NCBI GenBank assembly: GCA_944325035.1
Contig: CALUYM010000001.1
Coordinates: forward strand, 310,001 to 374,000
Length of the DNA stretch: 64,000 bases
Origin: an uncultured Anaeroplasmataceae bacterium
GTDB taxonomy: Bacteria; Bacillota_I; Bacilli_A; Acholeplasmatales; Anaeroplasmataceae
Reading direction: 5' to 3'
Part shown: piece by piece, positions 14,301-56,128 of the stretch
Layout of the letters: each line of letters starts with the position of its first letter
How positions within the stretch are numbered: position 1 is the first letter of the stretch
Translations under genes and position numbers: made by a program
Notes under the pieces: model-generated
Told to the model about the DNA's origin: nothing
Seen by the model: the letters and a program-made list of their open reading frames with translations, nothing else
Databases searched by the model: none

Positions 14301-14306
14301 AAAGGA
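13128..14306 (+). repeat. 1,179-bp direct repeat, copy 1
   Basis: By eye this stretch is identical, base for base, to 16,544-17,722. It covers the end of the linker, the whole AAA+ domain, the stop codon and six bases beyond. The distance between copies is 3,416 bp. The identity includes silent positions, so recent duplication or gene conversion is needed to explain it. Confidence 0.9.
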
Positions 14307-14315
14307 TGGCCTTAG

Positions 14316-16154: not shown

Positions 16155-16171
16155 TGAAAGGAGATTTGGTG

Positions 16172-17733: not shown

Positions 17734-20700
17734 ATGGTTAAAAGAAATAAACTAATGTTTGCTTTATCTTGTTTTTTAATGAGTCTAATTGCATTAATCG
17801 GAGTCTACTTTGTTTTAGCCGCAGTTGGTTGTATTGGCTACCGAACTAATCATATAAAGATAATTTCAACAAGTTCTGAAAAAACTTATGATGGAACTGA
17901 ATTGGTAAGCAATGACTATAAAATGGTAGGTGAACTGGGTTTTGGTGCTACATTGGATATTGATTTTACTGGTTCGCAATTAAATGCAGGTACATCAGAC
18001 AATACTTTTCAAGTAAAAGTACGTGATGCAAATGGGATAGACATTTCATCAGATTATGAAATTGAAACTGTTTTTGGAAAATTAAAGGTAAATCCTATCA
18101 CAATTGGTATTGAAGCGAAAAGCGCTGAGAAATTATATGATGGTGTTGCTTTAGAAGCTAATGAATATACAGTTACTCAAGGTGCTCCAATTGAAGGTGA
18201 TAGAATTGAAGCAGTTGTAATTGGTTCAATTACTGATATTGGTGTAATTGAAAATAAGGTAACTGCCAGGGTTGTTAATGAAGTTGGAGAAGATGTGTCT
18301 AGTAATTATAATTTAGTTTTAACTAATGGTAAACTAACAGTACTTGCATCAAGACTTAGTGTTCAAACTCAAACTATTTCTAAATATTATGATGGAACAC
18401 CATTAGTTACTGATCCTAAGACTGATTGGCAGATAACAAGCGGACAACTTTTAAAAGGACATTATACTGAAGTTTACATGAATGCTAAAATTACGAATGT
18501 AGGTGAAGTATCAAACACTTTAGTATTTTATATTAAAGATGAAAATGGAAATGATGTTACTAATTTATATGAAATTAATTACTCATATGGGAAATTAATA
18601 GTCGAAGCTTCTCCACTTGTAATTCAATGTGGTAGTGATAAAAAAATTTACGATGCCACCCCTTTTAGTGTTGAAGATTATACAATTATTAGTGGAAATT
18701 TAGCTGAAAATAATCAGGTAGTTGTTACAAATGCTCCAAGAGGGATAAATGTAGATGAATATATTAATGATTTGCAATTTCGAGTTGTTGATTCATATGG
18801 TAATGATATTTCTAGAAATTATCAGATCAAAGTGTTACCTGGGATGTTTGAAATTTTGCCAAGAATAATTAAAATTAAGACAAACGATGCGACTAAAATC
18901 TATGATGGATATGCTTTAACTGTTGATGACTATGAATTACTTGAAAATTCGATGACTTTAATTGATGGTCACCAATTAGTTTATATTAATGATGTTTTTG
19001 TAGACGTTGGAAAGTATGAAAACATATTCAAATCAATAAAGATTTATGATGGACAAACTGATGTAAGTTCAAATTATGAGTTTTATTTTGAAAGTGGGTT
19101 AATTTCAATTTTACCAAGAGATATCGAGTTAACTATTCTAAAAGGTGAGAAAGTGTTTGATTATAAACCTTTTTACTATACTGATTATCAAATAACTGGT
19201 GGAATGACTTTAGAAGGTATTTTGAGTAAAACATTTTTTAAAGTTGATGAAGAAAAAAGCGATAAAATAATCAAAGCTGGATATTATAATGCGAGTGATT
19301 ACTTCCTTTTTAAAGCATATTTAGGTGATCAAGATATTACGTCTAACTTTAATATTATTTTAAAAGACGTTGAAACTAATAACGTTTATATAAGTCCATA
19401 CCAACTTACTATCAAAACACCTAGCGTGACTAAGGTATTTGATAATAAACCGTTTAATATTTCAGAAGTTGAAATTGTTTCAGGTCGTGAGTTTATTCGA
19501 GATATTGGTGCGAATGTTACTATGAACCCGCATGAAAATATTATTTATGCAGGTACATATTTTAATAGTCTTACTACTTTGAATATTAATATAAATGGCG
19601 TTGATTATTCAAAAAGCTTTGAAGTATCTGAAATAGTAGAAATGGGAACATTAACTATAACTCCTTACGAATTTACAGTTATTACTCCTAATATTACACA
19701 TGAATTTGATACCGAAAATCATTATACAGTTAATGTAGATGAACTTGTTTTACCAGAATTTATTACTAGTAATGAAAATAGATTTAACTTGTTTGTATTT
19801 AAAGTTGATAGTGCAGGTAATAAAGAAGATACAACATCATTTATAAAATTTGATAATACGATGGTAGGTACTCATACAAATCGAATATCTTTAGTAATAA
19901 GAGATACAAATTTTAATGATATTAGTTCGTCTTTTTATATTAATTATGTATATGGTTCAGTCACAATTACTAAAGCTAATATTTTAGTAACACAAACAAA
20001 AGATATCAATTCAATATATACTGGTACATCAGAATTAATGCCAAAAGAAGATTTTAAAATCACTGATAAAGATGGTTATGAAATTATTTGGCTAAATACG
20101 TTAGAGTACCAAATTATTTCTACTAATACTAATCTTAATGTAGGAAAACGCTTAAATAAGGTTGAGTTAACAGATGTTTATATAAATTTTGGCGGTTATA
20201 AAATTCCCACTGATTATATTTTAAATATTTCATATAATTATGGATATATTGAAATAATTCCAAGAAAACTTATTGTATCTCAATTAGAAGATTATGTGAC
20301 ATATTTTGATGGAAATGTTAAAAAAGTACCTAATAGATTATATGAAGTAAAAGATGGATCAAGTTCAAATAATACTTGGTTAAATGAATATTTAAAAAAT
20401 AATACAATAATATTTAATCAAAGAAATGATATCTTAAATGCTTATAATTATATAAATAATTTTAATATAACTATATCTAATGGAGAAAATGACTTAACAG
20501 CTAACTTTGAGATAAGTTATAATTATAGAAACATCATTGTGATGCCTAGAACTATTAATGTATCTCAAGTATCAGAAATTGCCAAAACATATGATGGAAC
20601 AATGGTTAAAACTACGATAAATGATTTAACAATATTACCACTAATACAGCCGGATGATATAGTATCAAAAGATGAAATTATGGATATCTTAACTAATTAT

Positions 20701-22404: not shown

Positions 22405-22433
22405 AGTAATTTTGAAAAGGAGCATTTAAACCT

Positions 22434-25400
22434 ATGATAAGTTATAAAAAATATGAAGAAAAAATGCGAAAAATTGCAAAAGTACGTCATACCATTTATC
22501 GACTTCGTCTTTTAATTGGCAGTATGATTTTGTTAGTCATTGCACTAATAGTATCTTTTTTGTCAACTAAAGGGATTATCATTAAAGGTCTGGAATGCCC
22601 TTTAGAAATTACGTATGGAGATGACTATTTATATACAGCTAAAGCATTATTTTCTGATGTAAGTTATGAATTTAGACCAAAGGGAAGAAGTGAGTGGAGT
22701 GATGAAAAGCCGTATTTACCAGGAGAATATGAGATGCGCGCTATTTCTAATCGTTTTTTTGGTGCTAAAGGCTATTCAGATATTCAAGTTTTTTCCATTT
22801 TACCAAAAGATATTGAAATCAAAGTTAAGGATTCAAAAATAACATATGGTGATGAACCATCATTAACAGCTGATTTAGTTGGAAATGATAGAATCGCTGA
22901 AGTTGAGTTTAATTATGAAAACATTGAATTAACATCTACTGTTGTAAATCCCATTGATAGTTCAATTGTAATTGTTGATGAAACTGGACGAGATGTAACT
23001 AAAGCATATGACATTAAAACGGTTAAAAGCGATATAACCTTTTTAAAACGTAATTTAACTTTACAAATAAATTCAGAAACTAAAATATATGATGGTAAAG
23101 AACTTAATGCCAAAGATTATACAATTGTAGATGGTAGTTTTGGTTTTTCAGATACTATTAACATCGATTTTTCTACGGGAATAAGTAGTGTTGGTAATAC
23201 CATTGTAAAAAGTAAAAATGCTATAATCAAAAATTATGATAAAGATGTTACAAACCATTATAATTTAACTATTTTAGAGGGAAACTTAGAAATTACAAAA
23301 CGTCCTCTTACTATAACTACTGCAAGCGAAAAGAAGGTTTATGATGGTTTACCACTCACAAATAGTGAGATTAATTTATCGCAAAATGGATTAGTCGCTG
23401 GTCATCATATCGAAAAGATTAAAACAACTAGTATCGTAAATGCAATTTGTGCTAAAAATCAAGTTGAGGAAATTCAAATCTTAGATGAAGCTGGTAATGA
23501 TGTTACAGAAAATTATGATATAAATTATGAATATGGATTGCTTGAAATTGAAAAAAGAAAAATCACCTTAGAATCATTTAGCAAAACTAAGGTATATGAT
23601 GGTTTAAAACTAAGTAATAATTTATATCAAATTAATTCTGGTTCATTAGCTGATGGAGATAAACTTAGTGTATCTTTAGAATCTTCCATTATAAATGTAG
23701 AAAAAACAACTAACCAATTTAGTGATGTTCTAATTACTAATTTTGCAGGTGATAATGTTACAGCTAATTATAACATTAACTATATTGAAGGAACATTAGA
23801 GATTTTACCAAGAAGAATTTCTTTAAGTGGACTAGATCATATTTTTGTCTATAATGGTTTAGAACAAAAAGCTTCAGGCTATCAAATTAACTCGGGAAGT
23901 TTAGTTCCAATGCAGACTCTTAATGTAACAATTTCAGGTAGTTTAATTAAAGTTGGTCAAATACCAACATCATTTGAAAGCATTGTCATCAAAGATGAAT
24001 ATGGAAATGATGTTACAGCTAATTATGAAATTGACGAAGTAGTTGGAAGTATTACTATTTTAAAGCGAAAGATTAGTATAAAACCAATTGATTTGGAAAT
24101 TTATTATACTGGTTATGAAATAATGACATCACATTATGAATTTACAGACGCCTCTTTATATCAATTAGCATATGGTGATTTTTTAACAGATGTGACAACA
24201 AGCAAATCATTGGTCGATGCTGGTAATTACTTCAATCAAATTATTTCGTGTAAAATATATAATATTAATAAAGAAGATGTAACGGATTGTTATGAAATTG
24301 ATATGTCAAGTGAAGCTCGCTTGAATATCAAACGTCGTCCAATTATAATTATACCTGAATCTAAAAATAAGGTTTATGATGGAGTTAATTTAGTTACAGA
24401 TCAAATTATTATCACAGATGAATCTCGTTTTAATCTTGCAAGTACTGATTTTTTTAGTGATGTAAGACTTAATAATTCAAGAATTTTGAATGCAGGTAGC
24501 ATTGATGTCACGATTGCAAACTATGTAATTGTTAATAGTGAAGGAAAAGATGTAACAAATAACTACGAAATTACAGAAAAAATTGGTAAACTAACAATAA
24601 CTCCACGTCCAATTACAATTAAACCAATTGATGTTAGCAAAGTTTATGATGGACAAACTTTAGGAACTAATAATATAGTTCTTTCTAATAAAAGTAGCTA
24701 TAGTTTAATTCCTGGTGATGCAATTTACGGTTTAACAACTAAAGTCATCACTTATGTAGGAAAAAGTTTAAATAGTATTTCTAAAAAGTCTGTTATAATT
24801 ACGAATTCAACAGGAGATATAACCTCTAATTATGAAATAACATATGAAGATGGTTATTTGGAAATTTTGCCAAGAAATATATCAATAAAACCAATTGATA
24901 AAAGTAAAGTGTATGATGGAACTAATTTAGAAATTTTAGCAGATAATGGTTTTGAATATCTTAGTTCAACTCGATATTTTCTAGCTATAGGCGATGAATT
25001 AAATGCTACTTATAATGGCTTTCAACGATATGTTGGTTCTACAAATATTTCATTTGAAACCATTCAAATTCAAAATAGTGAAAATATAGATGTAACTGAT
25101 TGCTATATAATAGACAAAGAAGATGGTATTTTAACTATTTATGAAAGAAGTATTTCGATAAAACCTGAAGATGTCGTTAAGGTATATGACGGAATTGCTT
25201 TGACTTCAAATAAAGCAGTGCTTGCTGAGAATTCTAGATATGATCTTGCGATTAAAGACAGAGTTGAAATTACTACTAATGGAAGTGTAGTAAATGCGAC
25301 TGAAACTGAATACTTGGATAATGCCGTTATAAACGAAATAGTTGATTATAAAATTTTAAATAGTGAAGGTTTAGATGTTACATATTGTTATAATGTTGAT

Positions 25401-28400
25401 GTGAATATTGGCTATTTATCTGTATTAAGAAGAGAAATAAGTATAAGTCCACAAATAGCATCTAAAGTCTATGATGGTACTTTCTTAACATCAAATAAAG
25501 TAGTTTTATTAAAAGATTCTAAGTATCAATTAGTATCAAACCATGAAATTGAAATTATAACTAATGGCAAAGTAAAGTATGTAAGTGATGGTAGGGTTAA
25601 AAATCAAATAGAATCATTTATTATATATAATAATAATCAAGAAGATGTAAGTTATAATTACAAAGTTAATACAGTCGATTCTAGTCTAGAAATTCTAGCA
25701 CGAAAATTATCGATTAAACCGATGGATATAAATAAGGTATATGACGGATTTTCTTCATCAGTTACAAGTGTTGATTATTTGAATAACACTATGCTAGCTT
25801 ATGAAGATGTTATTAAATTTGAGCTATTAAACTACAATAATTTCAAAAATGTATCAGATTCAACTGATAATAATACAATATCAAATGTTCAAATTTTTAA
25901 TACTGATGGTATTGATGTAACTAGTTCATATGAAATTGACTTAAATCCTGGATGCGTAATAATTAGTAAACGCAAAATTGCAATTCAACCACAAAATGTG
26001 ACAAGAGTATATGATGGCGATGAATTTATTCAAACCAAGGGAGTTCTTGTAAATTCAACTTTAGGTAAAGGCGATAATTTGAGCATTACCTCAGAAACAT
26101 TAAAAGATAACACACATGGCGTAATACAGTATAATGTTATACATCATGAAATTTATGATAATTATTTAGTTAATACTACAAATAATTATGAAGTAACATA
26201 TTTAAAAGGCGAAATTAATATTTTACCAAGACCAATTACGATTAAACCAATTGATATTGAACATGAGTATGATGGTACTATTTTTAAATATAATCTTAAT
26301 ACAGTTGAAGTTTTAGATAATAGTTATGGACTAGTTAAAACTCATAGTCTATTAGTAAATAGTGTTTTGGGGTCAATTGTAAATGTTGGTATTACTAAAT
26401 CTACTATAAATTCAGTTTCAATCTATCAAGATGAGATTAATGTAACAGATAATTACGACATTACCTTTATAGATGGCACTTTAACAGTTTTAAAACGACA
26501 AATCACCATTAATCTAAATGACCTTGAAAAAGTTTATGACGGAACAAATCGAATAGATCTAAATGATGCTTATACATTGTCAAAAGAACTTGCGCCAAAT
26601 GATAAAATATCGTTAAATATTTTAAGTGACAACTCAACCATCGGAACACATGTGACTAGAGTATTAACAGCTTTTGTCTTTAAAGACAATAACGATGTTA
26701 CAAATAACTATGATTTATCATTTACAAATGGAAGTATAAAAATTAATAAACGAGATCTTGTAGTTAGTCCAGTTAATGCAACCAAAGTTTATGATGGTCA
26801 ACCATTAGGAATTACTGAAGTTATTGTAAATGGCTTAGTGGAAAATCATGAATTTATCTTTACTTCAAATACAATTACAAATGTAGGAAGTGTTGATTTT
26901 TTAGTGCAATCTTACGATATTTTGGCCAAAAATGGAAAATCATTGCTAGAAAATTATAATGTTAGATTTGAAAAAGCCTTAATATCTGTAAAAAAACGCG
27001 AAATTAACGTTGAATTTAGGTCAGAATTTGAATATGATGGAACAAATCATCACATTGAACATTACTATTTTACGAATGAAACTTATCTTGCTAAAGGTGA
27101 TATCTTTACTTTTAGTACAAATAATAGTCAAATGAAACCAGGAACGTATTATTTTGATATAGCAAATTATCAAATTTTCAACAGTTATGGATATGATGTA
27201 ACTAATAATTATATCATTAATAAAGAAACAGGTTGTTTAGTAATAAATAAACGGAAAGTTACAGTTCAAATTCTTGATAAACAAAAGGTATATGATGGTA
27301 TGCCGCTTACTTCAAATGAATATGAGGTTATATTGGGTTCTTTAGTAACTGGAGATATATTAGAAGTAATGACTAATGGTTCGATTGTTTATTATCAAGA
27401 AGGTGGAATAATAAATGATTATTTAAGTCACAAAATATATGATTTAAATAATCAAGAAGTTTCAACATATTATGAAATAGAATTTATTTCAGGTAAATTA
27501 AATATTATAAAACGTGATATTACTATCAAAACATCATCGGCCAACTTCGTATATAATACAAACTTCCATTCTAGTGATGACTATGAAATAGTATCTGGGA
27601 ATTTAGTATTGAAAGATATTATTAAAGTGCAATCGAAGTTTTTTAAAGATGTACAAATAATAAATGGAAAAGTTGTTGGATATGATAATACTTTAAGTGT
27701 ATTAATTTATAACGATAGTATTGATGTAACAAGTTCTTATAACATAACTTATGAATATGGCATTGTAACAATTGAACAGTATACTGTATATTATAAAACA
27801 CCTTCTAACTCAATAATGTATGATATAAATAATCCGATTTTTACTAGTTTTACAATTGCTGGAGATGAAGCGAATAGTTATTTAAACACTGATAAATTAA
27901 TTATAAAATCTAAATCTTTAGCTAATTCAAAAGATAAACTAGGTATTGTTCAAAATATTCAAGAACTTTCAGTTGATTCAAATAACTATCAATTTGAGTG
28001 TCTTTCTATAGGACAAATCCGTGTTAGTTTATCAATAACATATAAATCTAAAGATTTAATGGGAGAGTATAATGGACAAGCATATCAATGCTTAGAACTT
28101 GGTACTATATCTTATACGGATACATTTGGTGGTCAGATTAGATTTGAATTAAATCAAAGTGAATCTAAAAAATACATTAATGCTGGTGTGTATAATAATG
28201 AACAATCTCTTATCTTTAAATATGAAAATAAAGATGTGACCGATTTTATAGTTGTTAAAAATGATTATGGAAAAATCACGATAACAACTCGAGAAATTAC
28301 AATCCAAACAGCATCAGCTAAAATGGAGTATAATGGTCAAGCTCTAACTACAAAACATGAAAATGTCGTAGTAAAAACAATCTTAGGTCATATAGTTAAA

Positions 28401-29756
28401 TATAATACATTATCAGAAATAACTTATCCTGGTAGCATTGATAACGTTGTAGATAAAATCAACATTTATGATGGTTTATTGGATGTAACTAACAATTATT
28501 CGATTAGATATAATTATGGTACATTAACTGTATATGCTAGATTAAAAATCACAACTGCTAGTCAAACTTTTGTATACGATCAAGAAAAACATTATTTACA
28601 TAGTTATACAATTGATGAAGATTCAAATATTTTGTTTAAGGAAGCAAAATATAAGTTTAATTTAGAATTTTTATATAATAAGTCTAATCCAATGATACAC
28701 GCTGGTACTTATTATAATATTGCAAGTTTAGCTAATGTTTATAATGACTTAGAAGTCGATGTTACGAATTATATTCAATTTGAATATACTCCAGGTAATA
28801 TTTGTATTGAACGTGCAGATTTAACAATCGAATCAATTTCTTTACAAAAAAACTTTGATGGAACAAATATTATAAATCATAGTTATAAAATTAATGGATT
28901 AAATACTATTTATAATGATTCTACTATTTTAGTAGCTAATAAACCTGATAAATTAACTTTAGAATTTAATGATGATGAACAAGCTATTTATAGTGGAGAA
29001 TCTAGAGAAAATAAATTTACATTCAATATTACAAATAACAATTTTAATGTTAGTAGAAATTATAATGTAACAGTTATTTATGGTCTATTAGTTATCTCGG
29101 GTTCGAAACAAGTGTTGATTTTAACACCTAGTTCAATTACTAAACTATATGATGGTGTTACAATTAATAAAGCTAACATTTCATATCGCTTTGGACTTGG
29201 CTATTTACCAACTGGATTTGATATTAAAATATCAGAAATTAAAATAATGAAAAATAATAATGAGGTTGATTCAATTACAGATGTTGGAGAGTACATTATT
29301 AGCTTTACTAATAAAGATGATATTAGAATATATAATGAACAGGATATTGATATTACTAATAACTATGATATATATATTCAAACGTCAAAAATTAGAGTTA
29401 TCAAAGCAAGTATATCTGTTAGTACTGAAGATATGTACCGAGTTTATACAGGTAAGAGTGTATCTACGAAAGAAGTTAATATTTCGATTTCAAATGGAAA
29501 ACTACCAGCTGGTACAGAAATTAAAGAGGCAAAATTTGAGTATATTTATAATAAAAACCCAGAGATAAATCATGCAGTTATCGCTGGAGAGTATACTATT
29601 AGAATTGCAAGTTTTGTACTTGTAGATGCTAGTGGAAATGTAATATTTGAATTTAAATATAACGATTCAAGCAATCTAGATGTTGATTCGGTTGATGGTA
29701 ATTTTAGAATCAGCTTTAGTTTTGGAATACTAACTATTGCAGATACCAATTCTTAA
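22434..29756 (+). CDS. Giant MBG (YDG) repeat surface protein 2
   Basis: A 2,440-residue protein, the largest in the window. A basic cytosolic N-terminus leads to one membrane helix (about 26-46), then a first module of different type (ITYGDDYLY, ITYGDEPSL), then about 25 modules, most with a clear KVYDG-type motif (KIYDGKEL, KVYDGLPL, KVYDGQTL, RVYDGDEF, KLYDGVTI and others). Modules are about 80-95 residues and end in DVTxNYEIxxxxGxLxILxR. If each folds as an Ig-like domain, the chain could reach well beyond the cell wall. There is no sorting signal. AAAGGAG lies before ATG 22434, 29 bases after protein 1. Binding target unknown. Confidence 0.8.
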   Translation: MISYKKYEEKMRKIAKVRHTIYRLRLLIGSMILLVIALIVSFLSTKGIIIKGLECPLEITYGDDYLYTAKALFSDVSYEFRPKGRSEWSDEKPYLPGEYEMRAISNRFFGAKGYSDIQVFSILPKDIEIKVKDSKITYGDEPSLTADLVGNDRIAEVEFNYENIELTSTVVNPIDSSIVIVDETGRDVTKAYDIKTVKSDITFLKRNLTLQINSETKIYDGKELNAKDYTIVDGSFGFSDTINIDFSTGISSVGNTIVKSKNAIIKNYDKDVTNHYNLTILEGNLEITKRPLTITTASEKKVYDGLPLTNSEINLSQNGLVAGHHIEKIKTTSIVNAICAKNQVEEIQILDEAGNDVTENYDINYEYGLLEIEKRKITLESFSKTKVYDGLKLSNNLYQINSGSLADGDKLSVSLESSIINVEKTTNQFSDVLITNFAGDNVTANYNINYIEGTLEILPRRISLSGLDHIFVYNGLEQKASGYQINSGSLVPMQTLNVTISGSLIKVGQIPTSFESIVIKDEYGNDVTANYEIDEVVGSITILKRKISIKPIDLEIYYTGYEIMTSHYEFTDASLYQLAYGDFLTDVTTSKSLVDAGNYFNQIISCKIYNINKEDVTDCYEIDMSSEARLNIKRRPIIIIPESKNKVYDGVNLVTDQIIITDESRFNLASTDFFSDVRLNNSRILNAGSIDVTIANYVIVNSEGKDVTNNYEITEKIGKLTITPRPITIKPIDVSKVYDGQTLGTNNIVLSNKSSYSLIPGDAIYGLTTKVITYVGKSLNSISKKSVIITNSTGDITSNYEITYEDGYLEILPRNISIKPIDKSKVYDGTNLEILADNGFEYLSSTRYFLAIGDELNATYNGFQRYVGSTNISFETIQIQNSENIDVTDCYIIDKEDGILTIYERSISIKPEDVVKVYDGIALTSNKAVLAENSRYDLAIKDRVEITTNGSVVNATETEYLDNAVINEIVDYKILNSEGLDVTYCYNVDVNIGYLSVLRREISISPQIASKVYDGTFLTSNKVVLLKDSKYQLVSNHEIEIITNGKVKYVSDGRVKNQIESFIIYNNNQEDVSYNYKVNTVDSSLEILARKLSIKPMDINKVYDGFSSSVTSVDYLNNTMLAYEDVIKFELLNYNNFKNVSDSTDNNTISNVQIFNTDGIDVTSSYEIDLNPGCVIISKRKIAIQPQNVTRVYDGDEFIQTKGVLVNSTLGKGDNLSITSETLKDNTHGVIQYNVIHHEIYDNYLVNTTNNYEVTYLKGEINILPRPITIKPIDIEHEYDGTIFKYNLNTVEVLDNSYGLVKTHSLLVNSVLGSIVNVGITKSTINSVSIYQDEINVTDNYDITFIDGTLTVLKRQITINLNDLEKVYDGTNRIDLNDAYTLSKELAPNDKISLNILSDNSTIGTHVTRVLTAFVFKDNNDVTNNYDLSFTNGSIKINKRDLVVSPVNATKVYDGQPLGITEVIVNGLVENHEFIFTSNTITNVGSVDFLVQSYDILAKNGKSLLENYNVRFEKALISVKKREINVEFRSEFEYDGTNHHIEHYYFTNETYLAKGDIFTFSTNNSQMKPGTYYFDIANYQIFNSYGYDVTNNYIINKETGCLVINKRKVTVQILDKQKVYDGMPLTSNEYEVILGSLVTGDILEVMTNGSIVYYQEGGIINDYLSHKIYDLNNQEVSTYYEIEFISGKLNIIKRDITIKTSSANFVYNTNFHSSDDYEIVSGNLVLKDIIKVQSKFFKDVQIINGKVVGYDNTLSVLIYNDSIDVTSSYNITYEYGIVTIEQYTVYYKTPSNSIMYDINNPIFTSFTIAGDEANSYLNTDKLIIKSKSLANSKDKLGIVQNIQELSVDSNNYQFECLSIGQIRVSLSITYKSKDLMGEYNGQAYQCLELGTISYTDTFGGQIRFELNQSESKKYINAGVYNNEQSLIFKYENKDVTDFIVVKNDYGKITITTREITIQTASAKMEYNGQALTTKHENVVVKTILGHIVKYNTLSEITYPGSIDNVVDKINIYDGLLDVTNNYSIRYNYGTLTVYARLKITTASQTFVYDQEKHYLHSYTIDEDSNILFKEAKYKFNLEFLYNKSNPMIHAGTYYNIASLANVYNDLEVDVTNYIQFEYTPGNICIERADLTIESISLQKNFDGTNIINHSYKINGLNTIYNDSTILVANKPDKLTLEFNDDEQAIYSGESRENKFTFNITNNNFNVSRNYNVTVIYGLLVISGSKQVLILTPSSITKLYDGVTINKANISYRFGLGYLPTGFDIKISEIKIMKNNNEVDSITDVGEYIISFTNKDDIRIYNEQDIDITNNYDIYIQTSKIRVIKASISVSTEDMYRVYTGKSVSTKEVNISISNGKLPAGTEIKEAKFEYIYNKNPEINHAVIAGEYTIRIASFVLVDASGNVIFEFKYNDSSNLDVDSVDGNFRISFSFGILTIADTNS

Positions 29757-31170: not shown

Positions 31171-31875
31171 ATGACAACGTATCGGATTTTAGCTATTGTG
31201 GCAATAGTCCTTGTTTTAGTTATCGGTTTAATCCGCTTTAAACTAAAGCTATTTAAAAAAGTCTATGTCTTTAATTACATAAAACCGTCAGCTAAGAAAA
31301 TTGTCAAAGATAGTGGAATGATGTCAATCATTTATGAACCTAATAAAGAGACTAGACGTTTTATTAGCGAATACTCCTTAAGTAAAATTAATAAAAGAAA
31401 ATTTTTTCTAGCTAAATATCAAAAAATATATAAACAAATCATTTATTTTATTTATGTTTATGATCGTAATAACAAGCTGATTAAATTAATTGAGGTTAAA
31501 GATGCTAAACGTAATTCAACATCACAAATGATAAAACTTCCTAAAAAAACAAAGTCTGTAAATGTCTATTTAAAAAGTGTCAATAATGAAGTTTATAACA
31601 TGTATGCTATAAGACCGATAACAAAACTTCGTTTATTTGCGGCTTCAATAATGTCTAGTCTACAAGTCTTTTTAATAGTTTTTGCTTTAAGGAATTTAAT
31701 ACTAGAGTTTTATAATCCAATTCAAGTTGAATCATTTTTAAAATCAGATCTAAATTTAACAACGATAATTTACGTATTTTTATTAACAATTGTCTTTTTT
31801 ATTAGCTACTTTTTAATAGCCTTAATCTTAAATGGTAATTTTAGAAAGAAAGGAGGAACTTTATATGATTTCTAA
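31171..31875 (+). CDS. Three-helix membrane protein of unknown function
   Basis: A 234-residue protein with one helix at the N-terminus (about 4-22), a basic soluble middle of some 130 residues that looks beta-rich (KLIKLIEVKDAKRNSTSQM), and two helices near the C-terminus (about 158-178 and 197-221). I do not recognise the family. GAAAGGA precedes ATG 31171. Its last 11 bases overlap the start of the next gene, so the two are translationally coupled. It appears to be a dedicated component of the operon. Confidence 0.6.
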   Translation: MTTYRILAIVAIVLVLVIGLIRFKLKLFKKVYVFNYIKPSAKKIVKDSGMMSIIYEPNKETRRFISEYSLSKINKRKFFLAKYQKIYKQIIYFIYVYDRNNKLIKLIEVKDAKRNSTSQMIKLPKKTKSVNVYLKSVNNEVYNMYAIRPITKLRLFAASIMSSLQVFLIVFALRNLILEFYNPIQVESFLKSDLNLTTIIYVFLLTIVFFISYFLIALILNGNFRKKGGTLYDF

Positions 31876-34800
31876 ATCAAGTAAAAAAAATAATATAATT
31901 GATTTACAGGAGTATTTATTCCAAATTGATCCTGAAAGTAAGAATAAGTATGTCTTTTTAAAACTGATTAATAATTATAAAGAACCTCTTTATGCTTTAA
32001 AAGCTGGAATAAAGCAGTTTGATAATTTAGGTAATGTAATTGCCGATGAAGATTTTGATATCGATGGTTTAAATGTTAATAAGCACCAAGAATTTGTACC
32101 ATATGTTAGAATTCAAGTAAAAGATCAATGCTGTAAAATAAAATTTGACCTAAAAGGTGCTAAATTTAAAAAATTTGTTTTCCCATCTATTGAGGTAAAA
32201 AAAGCAGAAAAACTAATTAAAGATACATTTAAGTCTACTAATAGAAAAAGTAGAAATCGTTTTAGACTAATTTTATTGAGTGTTGCTTTAAGTATGATTG
32301 CAATTTCATCATTTGTAAGCTATTATTTTATTAATGATTACTTAAATAATAATTTACATATTGCATATGATGGATATGAATTTGATGTCAATCGTAAAAA
32401 TGCAACTATTACTAAATTACCAGATGATGAGGAATTAATTATTCCTACTATTTTAGCAAATGATTTTAGGGTTGTTGGAATTGAAGCTAGTGCCTTCGAT
32501 GGACTAAAAGCTAAAAAAATTGTTATTGAATCTGAAAATATTTCTATTCCTAGTTATGCATTTAGTGAATCTGAAACTTTAACTAGTTTTGAAGCTCAAA
32601 ATTTAGCAAGTATTGGTGATTACGCTTTTAATAATGCTAAAAACTTAGTATCAGTAAAAATAAACATTGTAAATAGTATTGGACTTAATGCTTTTGAAAG
32701 CTGTACAAATTTGGAAAAAGTTGAAATTAATGCAAAAACTATTTCTTCATATGCTTTTAAAGATTGTTCAAACATCACAAGCTTTAGCTCGGATATAGTA
32801 GAATATATTTCTTCATATGCTTTTCTAAACGCTATCAAATTAACAACCTTAAATGTCCCTAATGCTACATTAGGAAATAGGTGTCTTGAAAATACAGCTA
32901 TTGAAACATTAACGTTTGGTAATGTTGATTATAATGTGATGACATTTGGCACATTATTTGGAATTGAAAATGAAAATGCAACAGTAAAAAATCTTGAAGT
33001 AAATATGCCTGATATTCCAAGTAATTTTTTTCAGTATTTGCCGAATTTAAATCTTGTTTTAAGTGATTCTGTATATGTAAATTATGGTGCCTTTAATCAC
33101 TCAAAATTAGCTGGTTATAAAATAGTTAATGGAATGGAAATTCTAAATAATACGCTTATATCTATTTCTCCTGCTTTAAATGAAATAAGCATTCCAAGCG
33201 AGATTACTAGTATCAATAGTCAAGTTTTTAAAAATAGTCAGATTTCATCGATTACAATAAATTCAAGTAATATTAATTTGAATGAATCTCTCGATTCTAT
33301 TAAAAATTACTTTTCATTATATATGTCTGAAAATACACGTATTATAGGTGGAATTATTAATAATCAAAACCTAGGTAGTGTTACAATGAGTGCCAATAAT
33401 ATTAATACATTTGGTAAACTTTTTACTCAATATCAACCATCTTATGTTATGATTATAGGAACATCAATTCATTCGGGATTTTTCTCAGATTATATGGCTA
33501 ATGGTGAAATTGACATTACATCTTCTGTTAGAAATATTGCTTCTAATGCTTTTGAAAATGCCAATGTCAAGAAATTATCAATTCCAGCATTAGGAGATAG
33601 ACTTGATACTTATGGTACATTTTCTTTGCTTGAGGAACTAAGTGTTATTAATAATAATGAATCAAGTTTACCGGCAAATTTTGTAAGAGGTTTTACTGAA
33701 TTGAAAAAACTTAGTATTTCTTCAAATATTACATCTATGTCTTTACCCTTGATTGGAAGTAATTGTACAAGTTTAGAAGAAGTTATTACTCCATTTGTCG
33801 GTAGAAGTAGTGACTTTACTACCTCACTAAGTACATTTAATAGCTCGTATACTAATTTAAAATACTTAACAATAACAGGATACGGTACATTAGGTGCACT
33901 TGGTGCTAATAATTTAAAGGAATTATCTTTCAATACTTTAAATGTTTCATCATCAACTCATGTTTTAGACGGAAGTGATAATCTAGTAAAATTATCTTAT
34001 TCAGGTGCTCAATCCTTATCGAATTTGTTTTCCGTTATTCCAACTAGTCTTATTTATGTATCTATTTTTAATAATGGGCTTTTGAATACTTCTAATCTAT
34101 TGGAAGGGTCAAATGTGAAGATTTTTGAATCACATGGTATTTCAAGCTATAATGATAAAGCATTTACAGGAGCGCAATCTTTAGAGTATGCATATTTCGA
34201 TGATTATATAAATAGTTTTCACTCATTAGGGAATTTAAATGAATTGATTTACCCTAATATATTAAAAATTTTATCGCCTACTTTTTTATCTGGAACGTAT
34301 AATAATACAATTCAAGTTTTAAATTACATAAATTATAATCATATCTATAATTTGAAATATGAGGATAAAAATTATCAATATGATAGTATTTTTATCTATG
34401 ATCTTGAGGTTTTAATGGATAAGTTAAATATAAATAGTAAGTCAGATTTAATCTTACAAGAAAACGGAACAACATTAAGTCTTCCATATTTCGGCTCGTT
34501 ACCTTTAACCCTTAAAAAGCAACAAGAAGAAGTAAATGTAACAATAATGAACCCAAATACAGTTACTTTAAGATTAGTAGATAAAACAATTACTACTTAT
34601 AAAACACTACTTCCAGATGAAAAATATAAATTGCCAAAAAATGTTATTGATTCTACTCAAATTTTTGCAGGTTGGTATACTGATTCTCAATTTCAAAATT
34701 TACTTAATAAAGAAGAATTTTTTGAAACAAATCAAACACTATATAAACGATATCTAAACAAGTCAGATTATCAGATTGCCGGAACAACTAGAACGTATAA

Positions 34801-35272
34801 TTTTGGAAATAATAGTCAATTTAACTTCTTAGCAACTGCAACGGGTAAAATTGAGATGTATTTATATGGAGATGATATAAATAAGATTTCAGTCTATCAA
34901 AATGGTATGAATATAAATTTAACGCAAACAAAGGAAGAAGAGTTAGTTAAAATTTCCTTTATGACTTCTATGTATAAAACATACCAAGTATACTTATATT
35001 CAGATTCTTCCCCAACTAAAACCACAGTTTTAGCATCATATACTGATAGTGTTTTATATCATAAATTTGAAGCATCATCAGGACTTGGATATACGGAAGT
35101 TAAGGCAGTAATAGCTTCTAATAAAATTGAAATTCCATATTTTGAAGGATTTACTTTTAAAGGATATTACAGTAAATCTAATGATTTAACCAGCGTATGT
35201 TACTTTAATGAAAAAGGAATTCAAGTAACACCATGTCCAGAAAATGCTAAATTGTATCCAATATATGAATAG
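31865..35272 (+). CDS. BspA-like leucine-rich-repeat surface protein
   Basis: A 1,135-residue protein in three parts. Residues 1-130 are a beta-rich domain that would lie in the cytosol (LINNYKEPLYALKAGIKQFD). A membrane helix follows (about 133-155). Outside comes a long LRR_5 (BspA-type) region with repeats such as IPSYAFSESETLTSFEA, IGDYAFNNAKNLVSVKI and ISSYAFKDCSNITSF. The C-terminus has InlB_B-like pieces (FAGWYTDSQFQNLL, FTFKGYY). LRR_5 proteins often bind host or bacterial surfaces. ATG 31865 is preceded by AGGAGG at eight bases and overlaps the previous gene; the longer reading is not needed. A terminator ends the operon. The cytosolic domain on a BspA protein is unusual. Confidence 0.8.
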   Translation: MISKSSKKNNIIDLQEYLFQIDPESKNKYVFLKLINNYKEPLYALKAGIKQFDNLGNVIADEDFDIDGLNVNKHQEFVPYVRIQVKDQCCKIKFDLKGAKFKKFVFPSIEVKKAEKLIKDTFKSTNRKSRNRFRLILLSVALSMIAISSFVSYYFINDYLNNNLHIAYDGYEFDVNRKNATITKLPDDEELIIPTILANDFRVVGIEASAFDGLKAKKIVIESENISIPSYAFSESETLTSFEAQNLASIGDYAFNNAKNLVSVKINIVNSIGLNAFESCTNLEKVEINAKTISSYAFKDCSNITSFSSDIVEYISSYAFLNAIKLTTLNVPNATLGNRCLENTAIETLTFGNVDYNVMTFGTLFGIENENATVKNLEVNMPDIPSNFFQYLPNLNLVLSDSVYVNYGAFNHSKLAGYKIVNGMEILNNTLISISPALNEISIPSEITSINSQVFKNSQISSITINSSNINLNESLDSIKNYFSLYMSENTRIIGGIINNQNLGSVTMSANNINTFGKLFTQYQPSYVMIIGTSIHSGFFSDYMANGEIDITSSVRNIASNAFENANVKKLSIPALGDRLDTYGTFSLLEELSVINNNESSLPANFVRGFTELKKLSISSNITSMSLPLIGSNCTSLEEVITPFVGRSSDFTTSLSTFNSSYTNLKYLTITGYGTLGALGANNLKELSFNTLNVSSSTHVLDGSDNLVKLSYSGAQSLSNLFSVIPTSLIYVSIFNNGLLNTSNLLEGSNVKIFESHGISSYNDKAFTGAQSLEYAYFDDYINSFHSLGNLNELIYPNILKILSPTFLSGTYNNTIQVLNYINYNHIYNLKYEDKNYQYDSIFIYDLEVLMDKLNINSKSDLILQENGTTLSLPYFGSLPLTLKKQQEEVNVTIMNPNTVTLRLVDKTITTYKTLLPDEKYKLPKNVIDSTQIFAGWYTDSQFQNLLNKEEFFETNQTLYKRYLNKSDYQIAGTTRTYNFGNNSQFNFLATATGKIEMYLYGDDINKISVYQNGMNINLTQTKEEELVKISFMTSMYKTYQVYLYSDSSPTKTTVLASYTDSVLYHKFEASSGLGYTEVKAVIASNKIEIPYFEGFTFKGYYSKSNDLTSVCYFNEKGIQVTPCPENAKLYPIYE

Positions 35273-49993: not shown

Positions 49994-50028
49994 GGTATTT
50001 TAGAATTTAATCTAAAATACCTTTCTTT
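49994..50028 (+). terminator. Terminator after ychF
   Basis: GGTATTTTAGA (49994-50004) pairs perfectly with TCTAAAATACC (50011-50021), followed by TTTCTTTT. The remaining stretch to 50,229 is extremely AT-rich and shows no clear promoter. Confidence 0.9.
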
Positions 50029-50229
50029 TATCAAAAAATAATATATTTTTTTTAAATAATATTTTTTTATTATTTATCTTTGCTAGGTTGAAATATATGA
50101 TTTTTTTTGATATTATTTAAAATGTCAGTTGTGTATAAAAATGTCAAATTTAATTAGTAAAGTAAATTTTTGATATTTAATATAAAGATGAAATTTTTAG
50201 GAAAGGGTTATATTAATTAAGGGACAAAT

Positions 50230-51696
50230 ATGGATATTTTTGATTTAATACCTGATAACTTTTTCTCAATTTTATCATCTAAAAATAAACGCCTATATGT
50301 GGCATGTTTAATTGAAACATTCAGAATATATGAAAATGGTTCAATTCTTGGTACGGATAAAAAGATGTTAGCAGATGAACTAGCGCATTTTTTAGAACAC
50401 CACGAATCATATAGATATGATTCGTCTGAAGATGAAAAAATTGATGAAATTGATGAAGACATAGAAGAAGCTAAGAACTCGAAACGTTCCCTAGCATATT
50501 ATGTTTTACGTAAATTTGAAGAATGTGGCTGGATTTATATTGATGTTGATAACGATTATCAAGAAATTTTAAATTTCACTGATGCCGGAATAACGATTAT
50601 GGAAGCGTTGATGCAAATAAATCCTAACTATGAAAATTCAAGTTATAATAATGATTTTTATGACGATAATGACTATCAACCATACAGATATCATCAATCT
50701 GATTACAATGGTTATATCTATACAATTTATTGCCTTCTTACAAATCCGATTATTGAAGATTATGCTGTTGTATGTCAAGAAGTATATCGAAATACACGCC
50801 TTTTAATCCGTTCACTTCGTAAACTTGATTCACGAATGAAAGATTATATATCACAAGTAGTTGAAACAACAGAAATTAAAGATTTAATTACAAAATTAAT
50901 TGATTACAAATCTGAATTGATAGATGGAAGTTATTTAAAATTAAAAACGGGAGATAACATAAATAAATATCGTTTACCAATTGTATCAAAGTTAGAAGAA
51001 TTTGAGCAAAACGATAATATTATGTATGTTATTAGTAACAGTTATAAAGGTCATTTTCAATCTGCAGATGATGCTTATAAAAAAGCATACCGTGTTTTAG
51101 ATGAGATGATTGATATTTTTAATAGTCTTGATGAGTTTATTTCTGAGATTGATTTTAAAAATAAAAAATACATTGATTCTACAATCGGTAAAATTAAATT
51201 TTTATTAACAGAAGATGATAATATAACAGGTAAAATAAACACTATTTTACGTTATATTAAACTACAAAATAAACATGGACATATTGATAGCGCAATTCAA
51301 ACTTGTCAAAGCTTATTTACTCTACGTCAAGTTAAAACTTATAATCAAGAATCAAGTTTATATACACCACGTGGAAAATATAGCCGTAATTTAAATCAAT
51401 CACTTGATTTAAGTGAATTTGAATTTACAGATGATGCGCAAACTTTCTTAAAAGAATATAGTCTTCCATATAGTGAAGAATCAATAGCTCGTTTTGTTAA
51501 GTCGCGTCAATATGATGGCCAGATTCGCGCCTCACATATCGTCAAGTTCTCAACTGACATTGATGAAGTGATGATGTTAATTTATACATTAATGTATGCG
51601 TGTGAAGTTGGTTTAGAAATTACAAAGTGCGATAATGTAATTGTCCACTATAAATTTACATTTAATGATTTTATTATAAAGGTTGGTGACTTCTAA
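50230..51696 (+). CDS. JetA/MksF-like condensin subunit
   Basis: A 488-residue protein that resembles JetA of Wadjet systems (DUF5716 type), the kleisin-like subunit that bridges the SMC-like heads. An N-terminal winged-helix region (about 1-120, SSKNKRLYVACLIETFRIYE) is followed by a long helical middle and a C-terminal domain (SHIVKFSTDIDEVMMLIYTLMYACEVGL). AAGGGA precedes ATG 50230. The stop overlaps the start of the next gene (TAATG), so the operon is coupled. Assignment rests on operon context as much as on sequence. Confidence 0.75.
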   Translation: MDIFDLIPDNFFSILSSKNKRLYVACLIETFRIYENGSILGTDKKMLADELAHFLEHHESYRYDSSEDEKIDEIDEDIEEAKNSKRSLAYYVLRKFEECGWIYIDVDNDYQEILNFTDAGITIMEALMQINPNYENSSYNNDFYDDNDYQPYRYHQSDYNGYIYTIYCLLTNPIIEDYAVVCQEVYRNTRLLIRSLRKLDSRMKDYISQVVETTEIKDLITKLIDYKSELIDGSYLKLKTGDNINKYRLPIVSKLEEFEQNDNIMYVISNSYKGHFQSADDAYKKAYRVLDEMIDIFNSLDEFISEIDFKNKKYIDSTIGKIKFLLTEDDNITGKINTILRYIKLQNKHGHIDSAIQTCQSLFTLRQVKTYNQESSLYTPRGKYSRNLNQSLDLSEFEFTDDAQTFLKEYSLPYSEESIARFVKSRQYDGQIRASHIVKFSTDIDEVMMLIYTLMYACEVGLEITKCDNVIVHYKFTFNDFIIKVGDF

Positions 51697-52292
51697 TGTT
51701 AGAAAACTACGAAGCTTTAAGTCAAACCCAAAAGAATTTATTTCAAGATATTGCGAACAGATTATTATCAAGTACCTTTTTGTCACGTGATAAACGTGAT
51801 AATAAAGATAACTTTTATTTCGTTGTTTCGTTCAAAGAAATTTTCGATGAATTCTTTCAAATCTTAGGATATGAGTTATTATTAGATCAAGCTCAAGGTG
51901 TGGTTATGATTAAAAGTAACTCTACATCTAATACATTAAAATTAAAGCGTGATGAAACTATTATTTTACTTATCTTACGTCTTTTATTTCATGAGAAGTT
52001 AAAAGAAACATCTTTGAATGAAAATGTTGTAATTAGTATTCAAGATATTCATGATAAGTATAACTATTTAGAAATTAAAAGAAGAATTAACAAAACTGAT
52101 TTAGTTAGTGCTCTTCGTTTATTCCGTCGTTTTAATTTAATTGAAACAATGGGTGATATTACGGTTTCAAACACAAAATTGGTTTTATTACCTTCTTTAC
52201 TTTATGCAATCAACACAGAGGAAATAACCGAAGTGTTTAATTCGATTTCTCGAATAATTCAGGAGGTTTCAGACGATGAAAAAGCTAACTAA
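51696..52292 (+). CDS. JetB/MksE-like condensin subunit (DUF4194)
   Basis: A 198-residue protein of the DUF4194/MksE type, the winged-helix KITE subunit that binds the kleisin. The pattern DETIILLILRLLFHEKL, then ISIQDIHDKYNYLEIKRRINKTDLVSALRLFRRFNLIE is characteristic. It starts inside the stop of the first subunit gene and overlaps the third by 17 bases. AGGTTGGTGAC precedes its start. The three subunits are therefore likely made in fixed proportion. Confidence 0.82.
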   Translation: MLENYEALSQTQKNLFQDIANRLLSSTFLSRDKRDNKDNFYFVVSFKEIFDEFFQILGYELLLDQAQGVVMIKSNSTSNTLKLKRDETIILLILRLLFHEKLKETSLNENVVISIQDIHDKYNYLEIKRRINKTDLVSALRLFRRFNLIETMGDITVSNTKLVLLPSLLYAINTEEITEVFNSISRIIQEVSDDEKAN

Positions 52293-55200
52293 GATTAGAC
52301 TTATTAATTGGCATTATTTAGCAAATGAAACTGTTACTGTTAAAAATAATATTCTTTTAACCGGTCCTAATGCATCTGGTAAATCTACAATTTTAGATGC
52401 TATTACTTATGTTATTACAGCTGGTGATACGCAGTTTAATATGGCAGCCAATGAAAAGGGTAAACGTGATTTACGTGGCTATATTAAATGTAAACTAGGT
52501 GTTGAAGATAAAGAGTACCTACGTGATGGCGATGTAACCGGAGATATTGTATTAGAGTTTTACGATGAAAAAGAAGATAAGTATTTTTTAATTGGTGCAG
52601 TAATGGATGCTTTTGGCGATTTATCGCCAGTTAAAACTTTATTTTTTCATGCGGAAAATACACGTCTAGATGATTCATTTTTAGTTGATAGTGACAATAA
52701 AATATATTCAACTGTTGAATTTAGAAAGAAAAATTCAAATTTTGAATACTTCTTAACTAAACGTGAAGCTAAACGTGGATTTAGAACAGCTTTTGGTTCA
52801 ATCAACGAAGATTTCTTTCGTATGATTCCAAAAGCATTAGCATTTAAACCAATTGCGGATGTTAAAGAATTTATTTATCAAAATATTCTCGAGGAAAAAG
52901 AAATTGATGTATCATCAATTAAAGATTCAATTCGTTCATATAAGGAGTTAGAAAACACACTAAAAGTAATTAAATCTAAGATAACTGATTTAAAAGAAAT
53001 TGAAACTCTTTATAGTGAAATTGAAGAAATTAATGAACGTGTTAATTATCTAAATTATCTATTAAAATTATTTGAAGTTGAATCTTTTACTTCTCGTAAA
53101 AATGATACTTTGACTCAAATTGAAGTATTAAAAGAAAGAAAAGAAGCCAAATTCCAAGAAGTTAATCATTTTGATAATGAAATTGAAGAATTAAATGAAA
53201 AATCGCGTGAGTTATATAAAGTACTTTCTAATAATGAAGAATTTAAACAAGAAGAATATCTAAATCGTCAGATTAATCAAGTCTCGGCCAATTTACGTGA
53301 AATTGATGGTGCTTCACAAAATTATTTAAAGCGTGCTTCTCATATTAAAGATACCATTAATAGTTTACGTCGACAAAATGATTTAGATATATTCAAAAGC
53401 TTTCAAAACATATCTTTAAATAATTTAGATCCATTGATGATTCAAAGTACTAAACAAGATTTAATCGTTTTTAATCAACAATTCCAAGAATTAATTAATC
53501 AGAATTTAGTTGAATCTGGTCGTCTACAAAGTCAAAAAGATGAAGTAATTCGTGATATTGAAGAAGTAAGAAAAGCATTTTTACCTTTAAAACAAAACAA
53601 ACTTCGTTATAATTCAGATTTACTTGATATTCGTCAAGATATAATTGAGGGATTAAAAAGAATTTATAATAAAGAAATTTCGGTTCATATTTTTGCTGAA
53701 CTTATTCAAATAAAAAATATGGAATGGGCTAATACAATTGAAGATTTCCTCGCAAATCGTCGATTTGACTTAATTGTTGAACCAAAATATTATGATGCCG
53801 CCTTAGAAATTTTTGCAAGAAATAAAGGTAAGTATCGTACATATGGCTTAGGTTTGGTTAATACTCAAGAAATGGAACGGTATAGTGAATCTTTACCAAA
53901 TTCGCTTGGTTCAATAATGGATTCAGAAAATATTGATGCGATGCGCTATATTAATTTTACATGTGGTGCAGTAATTATGTGTGAGCATGAAAGTGAGCTA
54001 AAAAAATATCCAACAGCCATAACTAATGATGGTTTAATATATCGTGGTTATGTAGTTCGTAACTTACGTCCTGTTGAAAATCGTTTTATTGGTCATAATG
54101 CACTTGCTGAACAAACAGAATATTGGAATCGTCGTGGAAGCGAATTAAGAGAACGCTATAATGAAATTAATGAAAAAATGATCATTTTAAATGAACAAAA
54201 TAAAGCGTTAAATAGTTTAGATATAATTCAGTTAATTCAATCTTTAGACAAAGTGTTAAAATTTAATGAACTTTCTAAAAAGTTAGAAGAATTAAATTTA
54301 CAAAAAGCTAAATCTAAGAAACTTTCATTAACAGAACTTGAAGAAGAGTATAAACACGTTGGAGTTTTACTTAAGAATTTCGAAGCTAAAAAAATGCTTA
54401 GTGTTCAAGATATTGGAGCAATTGATAACTCAATTCAAACTTATGAACGTGAAATTGAAGGAATGGAACGTGAAAAAGCCATTGTTGAAGGAGAGCTTAA
54501 GTCGTTACTACATTCCGATTTATCATTAGAACATAAAGCTCGTGAAGAGTATCAAGAGTTAATAAGTACAGGGTCAGAACGTCGTGTATTATCTGATTTA
54601 GAAGCTAAGCTTCAAACAGAAATTAATAATTATGATAATCTAGTTGACGGTATAGTACATAAACAAGTTAACTATGTAAATCAATATAATTCAAATTTAG
54701 AAGTTGGTTTCGCAAATATTGATACATTCTTACGTGAACTTGAAAAACTTGAAAAATCAGAACTAATTAAATATGAACAAAAAGTTCGCTCTGCTAGAGA
54801 AACTGCTGAAATTATTTTTAAGGAAGATTTTATTTCTAAGTTAAGAAATAATATAGAAACTGCTGAGGCTGAAATATCTAAGATTAATGATACTTTACGC
54901 TTGATAAAATTTGGTCGTGATTCATATGAATTTATTTTCCCTAAATCAAATGAGTATGGAGCTTTTTATGATATGTTTAAATCAAATAATGTTCAAGATG
55001 GTCAGTCAATTTTTACATATGATTTCGAAAGACAATATAATCAACAACTTGATGAACTATTTGCATCACTTGCCCAAGATGAACTAAATTCAAATGGTGC
55101 AATTAATAAATTTACTGATTATAGAACATATATGGATTATGATATTAAGATTATTAATGAACAAGGTCAAACAATGCTTTATTCTAAAGTATTTAAAGAA

Positions 55201-55527
55201 AAATCAGGTGGTGAAACTCAAGTACCATTCTACGTGGCAATTATTGCATCATTTGTAAGGATTTACACACAAAATAAAGCAGCAACAAAAGATTCAATCG
55301 GTATAGTATTATTTGATGAAGTTTTTGATAAAATGGATTCAAACCGTATGAGAGCTATGATGGATTTCATTATAACTATGCCATTACAAGTCATTATTGC
55401 TTGTCCACCACAAAGAATGGGTATATTGCAGCCATATACTGATACTACATTAGTAATGGTGAGAAAGAATAATCGTGCCCAAGTTTTACCATTTGAAACG
55501 ACAGATGAAAACGCAGGTGAGATTTAA
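52276..55527 (+). CDS. JetC/MksB-like SMC-type ATPase
   Basis: A 1,083-residue SMC-like ATPase. Walker A LTGPNASGKST lies at about residue 29-39. A long coiled coil folds back at a hinge-like middle (about 430-620, with NRRFDLIVEPKYYDAALEIF), and the C-terminal head has KSGGETQVPFYVA and Walker B IGIVLFDEVFDKMDSNR. In Wadjet and MksBEF this subunit extrudes DNA loops. AGGAGG precedes ATG 52276. It ends one base into the SepF-like gene. Everything needed for ATP-driven loop extrusion appears present; the nuclease is not. Confidence 0.88.
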   Translation: MKKLTKIRLINWHYLANETVTVKNNILLTGPNASGKSTILDAITYVITAGDTQFNMAANEKGKRDLRGYIKCKLGVEDKEYLRDGDVTGDIVLEFYDEKEDKYFLIGAVMDAFGDLSPVKTLFFHAENTRLDDSFLVDSDNKIYSTVEFRKKNSNFEYFLTKREAKRGFRTAFGSINEDFFRMIPKALAFKPIADVKEFIYQNILEEKEIDVSSIKDSIRSYKELENTLKVIKSKITDLKEIETLYSEIEEINERVNYLNYLLKLFEVESFTSRKNDTLTQIEVLKERKEAKFQEVNHFDNEIEELNEKSRELYKVLSNNEEFKQEEYLNRQINQVSANLREIDGASQNYLKRASHIKDTINSLRRQNDLDIFKSFQNISLNNLDPLMIQSTKQDLIVFNQQFQELINQNLVESGRLQSQKDEVIRDIEEVRKAFLPLKQNKLRYNSDLLDIRQDIIEGLKRIYNKEISVHIFAELIQIKNMEWANTIEDFLANRRFDLIVEPKYYDAALEIFARNKGKYRTYGLGLVNTQEMERYSESLPNSLGSIMDSENIDAMRYINFTCGAVIMCEHESELKKYPTAITNDGLIYRGYVVRNLRPVENRFIGHNALAEQTEYWNRRGSELRERYNEINEKMIILNEQNKALNSLDIIQLIQSLDKVLKFNELSKKLEELNLQKAKSKKLSLTELEEEYKHVGVLLKNFEAKKMLSVQDIGAIDNSIQTYEREIEGMEREKAIVEGELKSLLHSDLSLEHKAREEYQELISTGSERRVLSDLEAKLQTEINNYDNLVDGIVHKQVNYVNQYNSNLEVGFANIDTFLRELEKLEKSELIKYEQKVRSARETAEIIFKEDFISKLRNNIETAEAEISKINDTLRLIKFGRDSYEFIFPKSNEYGAFYDMFKSNNVQDGQSIFTYDFERQYNQQLDELFASLAQDELNSNGAINKFTDYRTYMDYDIKIINEQGQTMLYSKVFKEKSGGETQVPFYVAIIASFVRIYTQNKAATKDSIGIVLFDEVFDKMDSNRMRAMMDFIITMPLQVIIACPPQRMGILQPYTDTTLVMVRKNNRAQVLPFETTDENAGEI

Positions 55528-55868
55528 TGGGATTATTTTCAAGAAAAAACAATGATTATGAAACAGCTTCAAAAGAATTAAATGCTTCTAAAGCTACATA
55601 TGCTAGTGAGCGTTTAATTATGGAACAAATCAAAGATGATGATGAAAGAGCCTGTGAACTTGTTGATAAGTTGAAGGAAGGTTCACCACTTATTATTAAT
55701 TTTGAAAAACTTCCTTTAATGGCTATTAATAAGTTACTAGCATTTTTTACTGGTGCTTGTTATGCTGTTGATGGAAATACCATTAAAATTAATGAATTTA
55801 CTTATTTATTTGCTAGAAAAGTAGATTTTCTTGATGGTACACTTAATAATTTTATTGAAAAGCTTTGA
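55527..55868 (+). CDS. SepF-like cell-division protein
   Basis: A 113-residue protein. MGLFSRK at the start fits the short membrane-targeting helix of SepF. The core EQIKDDDERACELVDKLKEG, SPLIINFEKLP, LAFFTGACYAVDGNTIKIN and FARKVDFLDG follow the SepF (DUF552) pattern. SepF anchors FtsZ to the membrane in Firmicutes. The normal neighbours are ylm and division genes; here it is the fourth gene of a condensin operon, overlapping jetC by one base, in the place where JetD nuclease would sit. TGA is the stop. It could be the main SepF of the cell or a specialised copy. Confidence 0.75.
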   Translation: MGLFSRKNNDYETASKELNASKATYASERLIMEQIKDDDERACELVDKLKEGSPLIINFEKLPLMAINKLLAFFTGACYAVDGNTIKINEFTYLFARKVDFLDGTLNNFIEKL

Positions 55869-55920
55869 TTAATCTTGAATTAGAATTATAAATAAGTTAT
55901 AATTCAAATCGTATATAAAC

Positions 55921-56128
55921 ATTGATGAGTTAGACGGAAAATTACGCCTTAATAGCGAGCTAGGATGGTGAAAGCTAGCACTAGTAGTTTTTAGATCACT
56001 AACAAAAATGGGTTATCGATGAGGTAACTCCGTTTTCCGCGTTAAGGATTAATGAGTGCGAGCTATGCTCGAATTAAGGTGGTACCGCGTTAATGACGTC
56101 CTTTCATATTAATTGAAAGGACTTTTTT
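55921..56128 (+). ncRNA. T-box riboswitch, isoleucine-specific
   Basis: This is the leader of ileS. Stem I closes with GTTAG (55929-55933) and CTAAC (55999-56003); just before the closing strand lies the specifier codon ATC (55995-55997), an isoleucine codon followed by a purine. The upper stem I has AGCGAG and GGATGGTGAAAGC motifs. The T-box sequence AAGGTGGTACCGCG is at 56,076-56,089, followed by the terminator GTCCTTTCA/TGAAAGGAC (56,098-56,122) and a T-run. Uncharged tRNA-Ile should stabilise the antiterminator and turn ileS on. Confidence 0.95.

Follow-up and report, generated by a model that had tools for sequence, protein, structure and literature searches.

The Anaeroplasmataceae, gut bacteria with mycoplasmas among their relatives, carry the core of a Wadjet-type SMC complex, jetABC, in one operon with sepF, the gene of the Z-ring anchor, and with no nuclease gene. 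We consider it probable that this domesticated, nuclease-free Wadjet core is the main chromosome condensin of these bacteria and is co-expressed with the Z-ring anchor. The arguments are drawn from the gene content of the locus, from searches in which neither JetD nor SMC or ScpB was found, from the identity of SepF, from the family-wide linkage and from the order of events that can be read from neighbouring families. A stronger form, in which a domesticated anti-plasmid SMC complex is the family's sole chromosome condensin, with SepF as its tether to the FtsZ ring and this direct condensin–divisome link replacing SMC-ScpAB, seems unlikely.

The jetABC-sepF locus

The window, meaning the whole 64,000-nucleotide stretch that was analysed, contains the quartet between ychF upstream and ileS downstream, with the following features in and around it.

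49994–50021, forward strand: terminator-like hairpin 3′ of ychF, 11-bp stem and T-rich tail, consensus match only (4 such hairpins found against a shuffled mean of 1.9)
50088–50116, forward strand: possible quartet promoter, TTGAAA-17-TATTAT with TG ahead of the second hexamer (the region has 45 promoter-like matches with 46.6 expected, no more than chance)
50230–51696, forward strand: jetA, kleisin-like subunit, 488 aa (PF18982, E 4e-64; PADLOC JetA1, 410 bits)
51696–52292, forward strand: jetB, KITE/MksE-like subunit, 198 aa (DUF4194, 5e-30; MksE, 1e-7; PADLOC JetB1, 207 bits)
52276–55527, forward strand: jetC, SMC-like ATPase, 1083 aa (SbcC_Walker_B, 2e-24; PADLOC JetC1, 1032 bits)
55527–55868, forward strand: sepF, 113 aa (PF04472, E 4e-10)
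55916–56106, forward strand: T-box leader of ileS (full-model match to RF00230 with E 2.4e-17 and 77.3 bits, under the gathering score of 93)

The bases read at the junctions confirm the overlaps between the Jet-like genes described in the original prediction (1 nt for jetA/jetB and 17 nt for jetB/jetC), as well as the single base shared by jetC and the fourth gene. The T-box, which emerged from a focused search, an Rfam scan of the window at gathering scores being empty, marks ileS as a separate transcription unit and, together with the hairpin after ychF, leaves the quartet looking like a unit of its own. The gene order is not due to chance, because the identical order recurs throughout the Anaeroplasmataceae.

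By Pfam, PADLOC and PDB sequence searches, jetABC is identified as the Wadjet/Mks SMC core. JetC contains the motifs GPNASGKST (from residue 30), SGGETQ (977) and VLFDEVFDKMD (1011), its ATPase residues are invariant in an alignment of 15 family members, and it matches the JetC chains of PDB entries 9qxt (7e-12), 8as8, 8dk1 and 8dk2. The PDB sequence search gave no match for JetA, and no NCBIfam equivalog scored above its cut-off for any of the four proteins. As in Wadjet type I (JetABCD, EptABCD or MksBEFG), relatives of JetA, JetB and JetC are encoded in the same order in one operon with intact ATPase motifs, whereas here jetD is absent, the genes are universal in the family and sepF is the fourth gene. 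An SMC-type ATPase, a kleisin and a KITE protein with no nuclease also constitute an MksBEF-like set. The MksBEF complex of Pseudomonas aeruginosa, which shares this nuclease-free Mks/Jet core, works alongside SMC according to the available text of PMC7485682; here, by contrast, SMC and ScpB were not found and sepF is linked. Among plasmid records only distant JetC proteins were seen (19 records, all <60% identity).

The fourth protein is a genuine SepF, as judged by Pfam, a PDB profile, AlphaFold/Foldseek and its ancestral gene position. It scores 40.1 bits against PF04472 (cut-off 27) and matches the profile of Bacillus subtilis SepF (3zih, 2e-9), and its AlphaFold (AF2) model (pLDDT 83) retrieves SepF structures as the best Foldseek matches, the first being the SepF–FtsZ structure 6sat (E 7.5e-5, TM 0.57/0.72). 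These results bear out the prediction of a SepF-like protein, and Pfam, the PDB profile and Foldseek rule out a mere look-alike. The protein shares with SepF of B. subtilis and Corynebacterium glutamicum the core fold, a conserved glycine and an aromatic residue at the putative FtsZ-contact position, but it is shorter, with a short linker, and its gene is joined to a condensin operon. At the position aligned by eye with C. glutamicum F131, which contacts FtsZ according to the accessible part of PMC7118173, 42 of 43 sequences have Y or F, and at the position likewise placed by eye opposite K125, 24 of 43 have K or R. The C-terminus of FtsZ reads [LIMF]P-x-W-[LI] in 33/33 loci read. The N-terminus of SepF is a short MGLF-plus-basic start, with residues 1–9 mostly of low confidence in the AF2 model, and SepF of the linked family resembles that of unlinked families. 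A single SepF was found in the source genome. Matches were found in 92 of 100 genomes of the order, among them 54 of 55 Anaeroplasmataceae genomes with one match apiece (that of G049 below the family cut-off), which rules out a second, housekeeping SepF elsewhere in the source genome and in these 54. G042, the one genome of the family with no SepF match, has a jetC match that breaks off at residue 888; at the named locus L188, which has the same match coordinates, the contig ends there.

Elsewhere in the window, two AAA_5 genes (12789–17716), which we take to be McrB-like and which are separated by a coiled-coil-like gene, have an identical 1173-nt 3′ part (13128–14300 and 16544–17716) and hence represent a recent direct duplication. 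Directly downstream (17734–29756) are encoded giant proteins of 1556 and 2440 aa with repeated 'KVYDG/YDG'-type units recognized by eye, the former with no Pfam match at 1e-3, and 31832–35272 encodes a leucine-rich repeat protein of the BspA type that also matches the Listeria-Bacteroides repeat weakly. The segment 45941–48205 has a spoIIGA-like ORF, named by eye, and after it two genes of the sigma-70 type interpreted as sigE and sigG, and murG/murB-like genes (names by eye) adjoin ftsZ in the loci read. These sigma and mur-type genes agree with the available text of a 2024 study of peptidoglycan and sporulation genes in part of the Anaeroplasmataceae (PMC10868615).

Distribution and origin of the linkage

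The order was sampled with 100 genomes in five families, f1–f5, the Anaeroplasmataceae being f1. JetC was found in 83 of them (f1 55/55, f2 3/3, f4 1/1, f3 22/28 and f5 2/13), usually in one copy in f1. In all 54 Anaeroplasmataceae genomes in which both were found, sepF follows jetC, as read at the junction in 40 and from coordinates, by eye, in 14. The four-gene order is therefore conserved as a family trait, which extends to the cultured Anaeroplasma bactoclasticum ATCC 27112. The spacing at the 40 junctions is −1 nt in 25, +1 in five, −14 in four, +2 in three, and +4, −4 and +67 in one each, such that 39 fall between −14 and +4 nt and the remaining one is at 67 nt. No JetC–SepF fusion was present at these 40 junctions, and a purine-rich, Shine-Dalgarno-like stretch lies ahead of many sepF starts.

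Loci from named genomes were retrieved with an alignment query, a scan with the single protein having given nothing, and the best 80 of 244 were read, 51 of them at least 47% identical and 29 below 47% (Izemoplasmatales and others). Among these best 80, sepF is adjacent in 50/50 testable loci of the closer group and in 0/25 of the more distant group. The flanking genes of these 51 loci served as a control: ileS is no more than 350 nt away in 11 of 46 testable cases, and ychF no more than 400 nt away in 20 of 44. Hence the jetC–sepF pair has been kept while the old neighbours of sepF have often been lost. Because the named loci and the genome sample overlap, their counts should not be taken as independent of each other.

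The origin of the arrangement can be read from the sister families. At 15 sepF loci in f2–f5, ychF precedes and ileS follows sepF, in some cases after an intervening ylmH or other gene, and yggS lies between ychF and sepF in 14 of the 15. In the f1 member that branches first in the tree (G008, locus L047), the order is ychF-jetABC-sepF-ylmH-ileS. By these orders jetABC entered beside a resident sepF in place of yggS, and sepF is the ancestral and single SepF of the order at its ancestral place (ychF-yggS-sepF-ileS). In a midpoint-rooted tree of 56 JetC sequences, the sepF-linked proteins form one clade (support 1.0). It is nested in a larger clade, likewise with support 1.0, that spans five families and is JetD-less; JetC of f3 forms a separate JetD-less clade. 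The tree requires a minimum of three changes for JetD and a single one for the SepF linkage, which points to three or more losses or gains of the nuclease among these complexes. Since the linkage arose once, the 54 genomes amount to one event plus retention. Replacement of jetD by sepF is ruled out by the sister-family gene orders and the JetC tree. The original prediction of SepF instead of JetD therefore holds for the missing nuclease and fails for the substitution. Similarly, its argument that a position between ychF and ileS speaks against defence reached a supported conclusion, housekeeping rather than defence, but the position belongs to sepF itself and so provides no independent evidence on jetABC.

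JetD, SMC and ScpB across the order

No JetD (PF09983) was found in the source genome, of which the assembly is 92% complete, either among the ORFs downstream of jetABC or elsewhere, so that the trans-acting nuclease that would have counted against the original prediction did not come to light. Among the best 80 of 244 named loci, jetD is adjacent in 0/44 testable loci of at least 47% identity and in 0/24 of those below 47%. JetD occurs in seven of the 100 genomes of the order, five in f1 and two in f5; in four of the five among the 55 f1 genomes its neighbour is a divergent second JetC, and in the fifth, G013, a further piece of JetC. In a sample of the class it was found in 22 of 316 genomes. 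JetD-less JetABC without sepF is more widespread, occurring in the Izemoplasmatales and other families.

SMC was found in 0/100 genomes of the order (control 10/14; the search scored only six candidates in each genome), ScpB likewise in 0/100 (control 11/14), and an SMC-ScpAB complex comprising both was accordingly seen in none. With neither protein found, JetABC is left as the sole condensin detected in the order, and it is from the absence of SMC and ScpB that we infer a role for it in chromosome organization. ScpB occurs in 146 of 316 genomes of the class sample. It was found in none of 16 chosen JetC-containing genomes of other families, and the 14 JetC loci fetched from these have no adjacent JetD. 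A strict rule that JetD-less JetABC always replaces SMC-ScpAB is nevertheless ruled out by four (G106, G148, G164 and G200) of 11 listed genomes with both ScpB and JetC: JetD lies beside JetC in seven, and these four have no adjacent jetD, G106 and G164 having weak JetD_C matches on other contigs. Thus, JetD loss does not require SMC loss, and JetABC need not be an SMC replacement. The four loci (L227–L230) may represent an intermediate state or accessory condensins.

For 11 of the 13 genomes of f5, and for six of the seven of g23, the smallest-genome genus of f3, the searches gave no SMC, ScpB or JetC, and SepF was found in 0/7 g23 genomes. Such f5 and g23 genomes possibly have no condensin at all; as SMC and JetC are both missing from most genomes of f5 and of g23, a condensin would not be indispensable.

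Possible roles of the quartet

We propose that JetABC, as kleisin, KITE and SMC-type ATPase, would have lost its nuclease and, where SMC-ScpAB was not found, would act as the main loop-extruding condensin of the chromosome, an activity to which the intact ATPase and the homology to Wadjet and MksBEF point. In the ancestor of the Anaeroplasmataceae, jetABC would have moved into a division gene cluster at the place of yggS, between ychF and sepF, and the four genes would have become a single unit of transcription and translation. SepF would be an ordinary membrane anchor of FtsZ, and co-expression may match the supply of condensin and Z-ring anchor, keeping septation in step with clearance of the chromosome; both the co-regulation and its benefit are proposed on the basis of the gene arrangement. 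The MukBEF complex of enterobacteria, for which we know of no link to sepF, offers a precedent for replacing Smc-ScpAB but belongs to a different family. There another SMC complex apparently took over, according to the available text of PMC10586767.

The main rival to this explanation is a historical accident followed by lock-in, in which jetABC came to lie by chance in front of an essential gene, coupling of sepF translation to that of jetC followed, and the two became inseparable with no functional relation. We regard this as improbable. The one origin, a single change on the tree, agrees with it and the overlaps suggest translational coupling, but Shine-Dalgarno-like stretches before many sepF genes and junctions ranging from −14 to +67 indicate that tight coupling is not universal, and lock-in leaves the intactness of jetABC unexplained. 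A plasmid defence system of the Wadjet type, with an unrecognized nuclease or one acting in trans, is very improbable. PADLOC profiles do name the proteins JetA1, JetB1 and JetC1, and five family members have JetD with another Jet copy; against this, JetD was not found in the source genome, was adjacent in none of the 44 testable family loci among the best 80 of 244, and JetC is present in 55/55 family genomes, unlike an accessory defence island.

A physical bridge, the direct coupling of condensin and division ring put forward in the original prediction, is compatible with co-expression of a main condensin and the Z-ring anchor and could hold on top of it: SepF may bind or recruit JetABC at the membrane-bound Z ring, with loop extrusion anchored at, or cleared from, the septum. 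We consider such a bridge doubtful. The gene order persists in all testable members as the flanking genes vary, the genes are adjacent and often overlapping, and the SepF fold and the aromatic at the putative FtsZ-contact position are retained. However, the linkage data are of operon linkage only, none of the 40 junctions has a JetC–SepF fusion, linked-clade JetA, JetB and JetC have no consistent or obvious new tail relative to unlinked relatives when their termini are compared by eye, and SepF is like that of unlinked families.

In the accessible parts of the open-access literature, no description was found of a jetABC-sepF operon or of JetABC as the condensin of these bacteria. Defence annotators may label such housekeeping condensins 'Wadjet'. 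The timing of chromosome folding relative to septation is an old question, and in the Anaeroplasmataceae a condensin and a Z-ring anchor have been fixed by evolution in one operon, with no other condensin found in the family. The cultured member A. bactoclasticum makes this link between condensin and Z ring testable.
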